Of a stretch of 64,000 bases of DNA, positions 13,635-14,292 are shown piece after piece. Position numbers and translations under genes: made by a program. Every line of letters starts with the position of its first letter. Positions within the stretch are counted from its first letter, which is position 1. Source of the stretch: an uncultured Bacteroidales bacterium (GTDB taxonomy: Bacteria > Bacteroidota > Bacteroidia > Bacteroidales > UBA932). The notes below the pieces were generated by a model. That model was given only the letters and a program-made list of their open reading frames with translations, was not told the DNA's origin and made no database searches. Where the stretch lies: contig CALUSC010000001.1 in the NCBI GenBank assembly GCA_944323345.1, positions 124,001-188,000 on the forward strand, given 5' to 3'.

Positions 13635-13742
13635 GTTTCTTTCGGGCAATTTCGTCGTTGACCTTCACTTCTCGTCGGTCATTTACAAGAGTAAACTCCC
13701 GTCCTCGTCGTTCGGCAGCCTTGAACTTGCCTCAAAACAAAC
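13635..13742 (-). repeat. tRNA leader repeat, copy 1 (tRNA-Pro)
   Basis: About 108 bases nearly identical to 14184-14292. Both copies are in the same orientation and end 7 bases before the 5' end of a tRNA. The minus strand can fold: an outer helix pairs 13645-13649 with 13727-13731 (GGCAA/TTGCC), and two abutting hairpins pair TGACC/GGTCA (13659-13663 with 13677-13681) and TTTAC/GTAAA (13682-13686 with 13691-13695). The function is unknown to me. Confidence 0.85.
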
Positions 13743-13758
13743 AGCCTTGAATTTTTTA

Positions 13759-13794
13759 TGAAAAAGAAGCTGCCACCCGACAGCTTCTTTTTCA
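13759..13794. terminator. Terminator after rpsT
   Basis: AAAAAGAAGCTG (13761-13772) and CAGCTTCTTTTT (13781-13792) form a 12-bp stem with an 8-base loop and A/T flanks, 34 bases past the rpsT stop. A separate 14-base palindrome AACCTTTAAAGGTT sits at 13804-13817. Confidence 0.8.
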
Positions 13795-13827
13795 GCTATT
13801 GAAAACCTTTAAAGGTTACTTTGATGC

Positions 13828-14082
13828 TTATGAAAGTTTATTGATATAAACTGCAATACCGCTCTTGAGGTTGGCAGCCTTGTTCTTGTGGATGACACCT
13901 ATCTTTGCAAGTTTGTCAATCATTGAATAAACTTTAGGTGCGTTAGCTTCTGCTGCAGCCTTGTCTGTGGTATTTCTGAGGGCGCGGATGGCGTTCCTCG
14001 TAGTCTTTGCATAATACCTGTTATGCAATCTGCGTCTTTCGTTCTGACGATTACGCTTATCTGCTGATGCGTGATTTGCCAT
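13828..14082 (-). CDS. rpsT: 30S ribosomal protein S20
   Basis: 84 residues, close to the usual length. [26 protein letters not shown] N-terminus, then a three-helix bundle ([44 protein letters not shown]) that binds the 5' domain of 16S rRNA. It lies between tRNA-Glu and a terminator and probably shares the tRNA-Glu transcript. The short basic sequence is unmistakable. Confidence 0.98.
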
Positions 14083-14104
14083 TGTTTTTATTTTTTATAT
14101 TTCG

Positions 14105-14176
14105 TAGTGGGTAGGGGAATCGAACCCCTATTGCAAGAATGAAAATCTTGAGTACTAACCGTTATACGAACCCACC
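14105..14176 (-). tRNA. tRNA-Glu (TTC)
   Basis: Minus-strand cloverleaf with acceptor GGTGGGT/ACCCACT (first pair G-U), anticodon stem CAAGA/TCTTG with loop TTTTCAT (anticodon TTC) and T-arm AGGGG/CCCCT. Discriminator A; CCA not encoded. It lies 22 bases upstream of rpsT and 7 bases downstream of leader repeat copy 2. Confidence 0.96.
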
Positions 14177-14183
14177 GGTTTTC

Positions 14184-14292
14184 GTTTCTTTCGGGCAATT
14201 TCATCGTTGACCTTCACTTCTCGTCGGTCATTTACAATGAGTAAACTCCCGTCCTCGTCGTTCGGCAGCCTTGAACTTGCCTCAAAACAAAC
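14184..14292 (-). repeat. tRNA leader repeat, copy 2 (tRNA-Glu)
   Basis: About 109 bases matching 13635-13742 apart from one substitution (A14203 for G13654) and a one-base length change in a hairpin loop (AATGA at 14236-14240 for AAGA). Outer helix 14194-14198 with 14277-14281; hairpins 14208-14212 with 14226-14230 and 14231-14235 with 14241-14245. It is part of the transcribed leader if the promoter at 14374-14405 is used. Confidence 0.85.

Follow-up and report, generated by a model that had tools for sequence, protein, structure and literature searches.

Among stable RNA leaders, those of the E. coli rRNAs carry boxA antitermination signals and RNase III processing stems, and in eukaryotes there are retroelements, yeast Ty1 and Ty3 and Dictyostelium TRE5, that settle upstream of tRNA genes. 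Among bacterial palindromes, Correia elements are found mostly just upstream of genes and their transcripts are cut by RNase III, according to the part of PMC10969869 available to us. REPs are hairpins of 20-40 bp whose foot is GTAG or CGTC, and REPs of the CGTC type exist in Bacteroidetes without a dedicated transposase (both from the accessible portion of PMC3733652). Bacteroidetes also have RAYT genes of subclass 2.6 flanked by atypical secondary structures with copies elsewhere in the genome (PMC6006769, in part), and three palindromic candidate structured RNAs of 106-132 bp, HMP2_4205, HMP2_1032 and HMP_4078 (PMC8040213, in part). For a tRNA-leader repeat of the kind presented here we found no description in the open-access literature, and the main text of a MITE review has no word starting with "tRNA".

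Here, we describe an element of about 110-125 nt with a conserved fold, located in front of tRNAs and other stable RNAs in a Bacteroidales genus, by our assignment Candidatus Cryptobacteroides.

Two copies around rpsT

The window (the whole stretch of DNA that was analyzed, 64 kb long) has two copies of the element, both on the minus strand, at 13635-13742 (108 nt) and at 14184-14292 (109 nt). A first-pass annotation of the window had described them as over 97% alike, each 7 bases before a tRNA. Both statements hold: 107 of 109 alignment columns are equal, the differences being one substitution and one 1-base indel, and the spacing to the tRNA 5′ end is 7 bases for both tRNA-Pro(CGG) and tRNA-Glu(UUC). 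It is also correct that tRNA-His, -Asn and -Met lack the element, as the covariance model reports just these two copies in the window at E-values up to 1. The features of the locus, all on the minus strand, are the following.

14374..14381, minus strand: promoter -7 motif TAnnTTTG upstream of the Glu copy (pattern match)
14178..14299, minus strand: rod copy before tRNA-Glu, with an outer GTTT/AAAC extension via the linker (R2 match 14179-14296, 107.1 bits; fold)
14104..14176, minus strand: tRNA-Glu (UUC) (ARAGORN and Rfam)
13828..14082, minus strand: rpsT, 84 aa, between tRNA-Glu and the Pro copy (open reading frame)
13760..13793, minus strand: terminator-like hairpin with a T-run, following rpsT and next to the upstream end of the Pro copy (sequence)
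13744..13753, minus strand: short stretch TTCAAGGC, like the inner 5′ motif of the element (sequence inspection)
13634..13743, minus strand: rod copy before tRNA-Pro (R2 match 13630-13746, 105.6 bits; fold)
13552..13627, minus strand: tRNA-Pro (CGG) (ARAGORN and Rfam)

The transcription order is thus TAnnTTTG, Glu copy, tRNA-Glu, rpsT, terminator-like hairpin, Pro copy and tRNA-Pro. TAnnTTTG is the Bacteroidetes promoter -7 consensus, and its location upstream of the Glu copy places the element within a predicted leader. From rpsT to the Pro copy we see no such motif. The reading frame at 13828..14082 we take to be rpsT, for ribosomal protein S20, by its sequence; it has a single match in each of 58 of the 61 genus genomes searched. 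The hairpin at 13760-13793 may act as a partial terminator or mark a processing site, and it leaves little space for a promoter ahead of tRNA-Pro. A similar hairpin follows rpsT in 10 of 11 genus loci inspected by eye, whether the element is present or not; it is not seen in one genome, G008. The stretch TTCAAGGC at the 5′ flank of the Pro copy is possibly the remnant of an older copy, judging by its likeness to the inner motif.

A single rod with covarying base pairs

The tRNA (sense) strand of the element is predicted to fold end to end as a single long imperfect rod, broken by short purine internal loops. The fold proposed in the first-pass annotation had an outer helix and two abutting hairpins. 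Two of its helices are present in one rod, TTTAC/GTAAA at the tip and GGCAA/TTGCC in the lower stem, but the TGACC/GGTCA hairpin is in neither the predicted nor the covarying structure, and instead of two abutting hairpins both structures have one rod. The two differences between the window copies do fall in unpaired places, as had been proposed, one in the apical loop and the other in an internal loop. With dinucleotide shuffles, the fold-energy z-scores of the two copies are -4.8 and -3.7 for the tRNA strand, versus -2.4 and -1.3 for the opposite one. For 140-nt leaders, using plain base shuffles, the z-scores are -4.3 (Glu), -2.5 (Pro), 0.4 (His), -2.0 (Asn) and 0.2 (Met).

The covariation check that had been called for shows strong covariation: paired changes keep the fold in two sets of copies. 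In a MAFFT alignment of 12 copies from the own genome (which we call G000), 92.7% of cells pair versus 86.0% when shuffled, there are 30 double-change cells versus 10.0, and the covariation score is 0.253 versus 0.130 (reached in 0 of 500 shuffles). When the structure is slid along the same alignment, pairing drops to 34-51%. With 47 copies from several genomes, in an alignment that was fitted to the covariance model and therefore leans towards the structure, 93.0% of cells pair versus 76.4% when shuffled, double changes are seen in 30 of the 34 pairs, and covariation scores 0.418 versus 0.141. G.U exceeds A.C on the sense strand by 136 to 31 (about half of the G.U come from two columns), and for this reason the sense strand is probably the one that folds. 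Between genomes, copies of the element have a mean identity of 68-70%, and it is mainly the fold that is kept, with conserved apical and internal-loop motifs and a consensus foot UGAAGUUU...AAACGAAAA. The early proposal of a folded element under structural constraint is thus supported, both by covariation and by the many further copies that we describe below.

The gap between the rod and the tRNA is usually part of the rod, which tends to reach the tRNA. Among 73 distinct tRNA-adjacent copies, 84.1% of the cells in which the linker faces the sequence immediately 5′ of the element are paired (as in TTTTT/AAAAA, TTTTC/GAAAA, ATAAC/GTTAT and ATTTC/GAAAT). Exchanging the flanks at random between copies lowers this to 62.6% (at most 69.2% in 1000 shuffles), and sliding lowers it to 64-69%. 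At the Glu site of the window, the fold pairs GTTT at 14299-14296 with AAAC at 14181-14178, an extension that stops 1 nt short of the tRNA, so that the gap there is not an unpaired spacer; the Pro site has no such extension. In the 16S arrays introduced below, the last copy alone keeps the AAAC end, and the upstream tandem copies are without it.

Copies in front of tRNAs, rRNAs and start codons

A DNA search of 31 genomes finds matches in the own genome alone, a limit that we attribute to fast sequence turnover, and a covariance model is therefore needed. One model, R1, was built from 12 own-genome copies, with no member of the dispersed family discussed later. The other, R2, includes one dispersed-family copy (L028:1273-1390), one copy from locus L167 of a MAG with the label Gammaproteobacteria, and a few copies that are truncated; its scores are thus tilted slightly towards the dispersed family.

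The own genome, 88% complete with 2.12 Mb in 62 contigs, has 13 tRNA-type copies with covariance model scores of at least 78 bits. Two further matches, of 44-45 bits, are cut short where a contig ends. The 13 copies either precede the Glu, Pro, Ala, Ile2, Tyr (a tandem pair), Gly and Val tRNAs, where Ile2 has a CAU anticodon and its Ile identity is presumed, or form tandem sets of two and three at contig ends; one of these contigs continues into 16S rRNA, and the leader on the other has the same sequence. The rRNA, Ala, Ile2, Thr-Tyr-Gly and Glu units have a TAnnTTTG motif ahead of the element (by eye, except for Glu).

That the element recurs 5′ of tRNAs in relatives had been an impression, and it is now backed by many more copies in the genus. 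At least 41 of 151 genus genomes have a match at E ≤ 1e-4, a lower bound because 24 of several hundred candidates were scored per genome. We located the new best-match loci of 26 genus genomes (25 of the 41 and one from the order search; those omitted have mainly weaker matches), and each of the 26 precedes a stable RNA. In 21 a tRNA starts 0-4 nt past the end of the model, in one the tRNA is cut by the contig end, one is a tandem copy before a tRNA, and the remaining ones are one before 16S, one before 23S and one rRNA-type leader. Also within the genus there is a 53.6-bit rod (L047, G010:C69:8040-8153) with no tRNA in the surrounding 2 kb.

A broader picture comes from 84 matches in 60 further genus stretches, taken down the hit list irrespective of context. 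Directly 5′ of a same-strand tRNA are 35 of the 84, and another 10 are in tandem with those, for 45 leading into a tRNA; 9 are at the start of coding sequences, with 6 in tandem; and 8 are in rRNA leaders (3 before 16S, 1 in tandem, 1 before 23S and 3 of rRNA type at contig ends). The rest are 3 in tandem with unclassified matches, and 13 others, mostly of the dispersed family. None of the 84 classified matches is antisense to an adjoining tRNA. The chance of a random copy falling 0-8 nt before a same-strand tRNA is estimated at near 1e-4. The distance to rRNA is not fixed: about 100-140 nt to 16S, and about 20 or 223 nt to 23S.

At start codons, the genes include xth, prephenate dehydrogenase, V-type ATPase subunit D, a HlyD-like protein and a 2-oxoacid oxidoreductase gamma subunit, with names read off the translations. 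At loci L331, L345, L346, L349, L351, L352, L357, L358, L364, L384 and L386, no more than about 10 nt separate the end of a tRNA-type rod from the start codon. Bacteroidetes initiate translation without Shine-Dalgarno sequences, at A-rich regions, and rods this close to the start codon could affect translation.

Filled and empty sites

The rpsT region has the element in 6 of 30 genus genomes and lacks it in 24 (these 30 loci, own included, are those listed of the 58 with rpsT, and a few are loci in which tRNA-Pro was not found). Both Glu and Pro copies are present in G000 and G065, two Glu copies in tandem and no Pro copy in G076, and the Pro copy only in G041, G077 and G008. In G076, with an S20 protein 98% identical to that of G000, the Pro site is empty. 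In front of xth, the 7 readable loci of 11, judged by eye, have 2 full or nearly full copies, 2 partial ones and 3 with none; the other 4 were excluded because the start codon was not matched by the pattern. The element is thus dispensable at the rpsT and xth loci, where it is frequently moved or lost. And given 24 rpsT loci without it, it is not generally needed for those tRNAs.

A tree was built for 76 copies adjacent to a tRNA, in 29 genomes, after excluding 25 of 101 matches with no tRNA within 8 nt or with too many gaps. Genome labels require 53 changes on this tree versus 63.0 when shuffled (minimum 57), and tRNA labels require 34 versus 48.7 (minimum 42). Both sets of labels cluster, which indicates vertical inheritance together with spread within genomes. 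The distribution is then in part vertical, as copies cluster by tRNA identity. Sister pairs on the tree are the Glu and Pro copies of G000, and the Gly and Tyr copies of G044 and of G136; near-identical copies can sit at unrelated tRNAs of one genome.

Dispersed relatives

In the own genome, R1 also detects 12 rods that score 30-43 bits. With one of these as query, a DNA search finds 8 more full-length copies with 97-99% identity at unrelated sites of that genome, as well as partial and more diverged copies. These dispersed rods have mixed orientation to genes; they share the inner motifs of the tRNA type, and their outer stem is longer. A pattern scan of named genomes finds at least 83 motif matches; the 83 listed are spread over 80 loci, for the most part of Bacteroidota MAGs, and 8 of them precede a tRNA.

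An order search finds matches at E ≤ 1e-4 in 79 of 295 genomes, 2 in the genus and 77 outside. No tRNA lies within 300 nt of any of 28 order-level loci outside the genus, and none of 15 family-sample loci outside the genus has a sense tRNA downstream, an absence qualified by loci L130, L150, L151, L166 and L187, where the tRNA-linked element does occur. Of the 15 family-sample loci, one is 3′ of a tRNA-Arg and antisense to it, and in eight the distance from the end of the rod to the stop codon of a convergent frame is at most about 25 nt. The first-pass annotation had held that copies at random sites unrelated to tRNAs would speak against its reading. The dispersed relatives do sit at sites of this kind, so that such copies are in part what we observe.

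Several other observations concern these rods. Dispersed rods are often at gene 3′ ends (L093-L101 of G000, L284-L311, L387-L401), and at L094 and L095 a TGA in the outer arm seems to be the stop codon of the upstream gene. Longer variants with an extra hairpin near the tip are found at L106 and L103 (G000 C1:45914-46038 and C23:298-460). At L394, a dispersed-type rod is just 3′ of, and antisense to, tRNA-Arg(CCU). At L362 and L371 the gene for the Bacteroidales small SRP RNA (RF04183) is followed, after a few nt, by an antisense rod; we considered these rods as an SRP RNA leader and rejected it, since the SRP gene is on the other strand with the rods 3′ of it. Finally, L167:1801-1906, in the MAG labelled Gammaproteobacteria, is a rod-like match of 24.5 bits between tRNA-Ala(GGC) and tRNA-Glu.

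A mobile palindrome or a host RNA

We consider it probable, if only just, that the element is a small non-coding mobile palindrome, like ERIC or Correia in kind, with a subfamily in 5′ leaders. The subfamily is found mainly in one Bacteroidales genus, Candidatus Cryptobacteroides, in predicted transcribed 5′ leaders of tRNAs, rRNAs and some protein genes, where the base of the rod reaches the tRNA 5′ end or is near the start codon; all the tRNA-adjacent cases that were classified are sense. Copies in tRNA leaders would be co-transcribed with the precursor and then cut off by RNase P, perhaps also RNase III. An element that is removed from the tRNA precursor would do little harm, and the leader would be a safe haven. 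The element would invade further leaders and multiply into tandem copies, with such mobility producing the patchy presence. Mobility has in its favour the empty Pro site of G076 beside a filled Glu site, the sister pairs on the tree, the tandem arrays and the near-identical dispersed relatives in the own genome. The fold might be kept because the folded sense strand, as RNA or as single-strand DNA, is recognised by the mobilising machinery; alternatively, because an unfolded copy would disturb the leader.

The 24 empty loci of 30, the rRNA and start-codon sites and the dispersed relatives argue for a mobile element as opposed to a dedicated tRNA signal. The processing signal, regulatory leader or non-coding RNA family that had been suggested from the window we see as less likely. 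Counting against the mobile palindrome, the strict sense orientation and the exact abutment to tRNAs exceed what a random mobile element needs. The absence of a Y1 transposase match in G000, G065 and G076, of a target-site duplication in the dispersed family, and the vertical part of the distribution also count against it.

The main rival is a host RNA function, which we regard as somewhat unlikely: a leader RNA whose rod serves pre-tRNA and pre-rRNA processing, or processive antitermination or transcription support in untranslated operons, and is kept where useful. It would account for the sense-only orientation, for the abutment to tRNA 5′ ends and for a location between promoter motif and RNA gene wherever that was read. 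It also fits the presence in both 16S and 23S leaders, the copies kept vertically at one tRNA in G041/G077 and likewise in the Tyr group, and a Pro copy that comes after a terminator-like hairpin. But such a function does not explain why the element is absent around rpsT in 24 of 30 genus genomes, why it is also found at start codons, why its distances to 16S and 23S vary, or why its closest relatives are dispersed repeats.

An unlikely variant of the mobile element is one that targets the 5′ ends of stable RNAs by an RNA-level or transcription-coupled step, inserting in sense upstream of tRNAs, rRNAs and start codons, with leader and junction forming one RNA rod.

Quite unlikely, in our view, is an ancient, vertically inherited leader with frequent loss, its similarity within genomes due to gene conversion between leaders. 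Copies do cluster by tRNA on the tree, and truncated remnants exist at several sites. However, Glu-site copies are found in just 3 of the 30 genomes, whose S20 proteins are 98-100% identical, and outside the genus the order-level loci have no tRNA within 300 nt and the family-level loci no sense tRNA downstream, as given above together with the exceptions. An independent small RNA, released from tRNA precursors and acting in trans, would suit a structured and probably transcribed element with conserved loop motifs, but is very unlikely for one that varies so much in sequence between copies, keeps mainly its fold, and has no Rfam match.

We give equally little credence to a REP element moved by a RAYT (TnpA-REP) transposase, for example of Bacteroidetes subclass 2.6. 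In its favour are the atypical structures with genomic copies reported for that subclass in the available part of PMC6006769, which remain a lead for the machinery of the element, and the Y1 transposases of dispersed-rod genomes such as G085 and G086. Y1 (RAYT-like) frames, mostly of about 300 aa and 1-3 per genome (for instance at L243 and L246), occur in G041, G077, G008, G044 and G036, with no rod beside the loci inspected. Against it, a search for the Y1 transposase domain (PF01797, E-value 0.001) has no match in G000 (88% complete), G065 or G076, nor in G093, G094 and G096, the genomes of the element-bearing L151, L166 and L130. A rod is near just 1 of 20 Y1 loci of other genomes, with a weak 26.8 bits, and the Y1 flanks examined have other, unrelated short hairpins. 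As for a transposase shared by the neighbours of dispersed rods, we clustered the neighbours at 80 loci and discarded the idea as none recurs; the largest clusters look, by eye, like translation GTPases and ABC ATPases.

The element would add to the Bacteroidales a large family of structured palindromic repeats absent from Rfam, with a subfamily whose niche, the leaders of essential RNA genes with the highest expression, is a rare one. Its fold, sense-only orientation and junction pairing lead to concrete testable predictions on insertion and precursor processing, and its covariation provides a searchable annotation model. It is also a warning that covariation next to a tRNA need not mean a host regulatory RNA.

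Comparison with known families

Searches with Rfam release 15 at gathering cut-offs report tRNAs alone in the window, and nothing on the rods of 10 further loci. At L005, L006, L008, L009 and L012 Rfam reports only tRNA, a 16S fragment and a sub-threshold antisense-tRNA match. Weak matches from a permissive Rfam search, such as lactis-plasmid and OrzO-P, were dismissed as far below their cut-offs.

Like a MITE, the element is short (about 110-125 nt) and non-coding, has complementary ends that covary, and is present or absent at orthologous sites (6 of 30 at rpsT; xth). We find no target-site duplication: for 18 dispersed copies from several genomes, one of them misanchored by the script, the mean longest direct repeat is 3.11 versus 3.40 when shuffled, and for the tRNA type none was seen by eye in one comparison of a filled and an empty site. 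The MITE-like ERIC, Correia (CREE) and RUP palindromes resemble it in being imperfect non-coding palindromes of about 100-200 bp with many copies near genes. They differ in belonging to other phyla (PMC10969869, in part), whereas the element described here has no target-site duplication that we could find, strong covariation, an orientation sense to the tRNA, and a preference for tRNA and rRNA leaders. The distinction from these three families is by their descriptions, with sequence compared via Rfam alone.

With REPs and BIMEs the element shares being palindromic, dispersed and structured as a single strand, and its related dispersed rods are often at gene 3′ ends. Unlike them, it is a rod of about 110-125 nt and not a hairpin of 20-40 bp, without a GTAG/CGTC foot, and we found no RAYT in G000, G065 or G076; where RAYT systems have the gene flanked by the repeat, just 1 of 20 Y1 loci of other genomes has a rod nearby, a weak one. 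By description, HMP2_4205, HMP2_1032 and HMP_4078 might include the dispersed rods; in the accessible part of PMC8040213 none of the three is described as being at tRNA genes.

The rRNA leader position is shared with the E. coli leader elements, but the element is also found in tRNA and coding-sequence leaders, is patchy and repeats in tandem. And were the unlikely RNA-level targeting of stable-RNA 5′ ends true, we would be looking at a bacterial counterpart of yeast Ty1/Ty3 and Dictyostelium TRE5.
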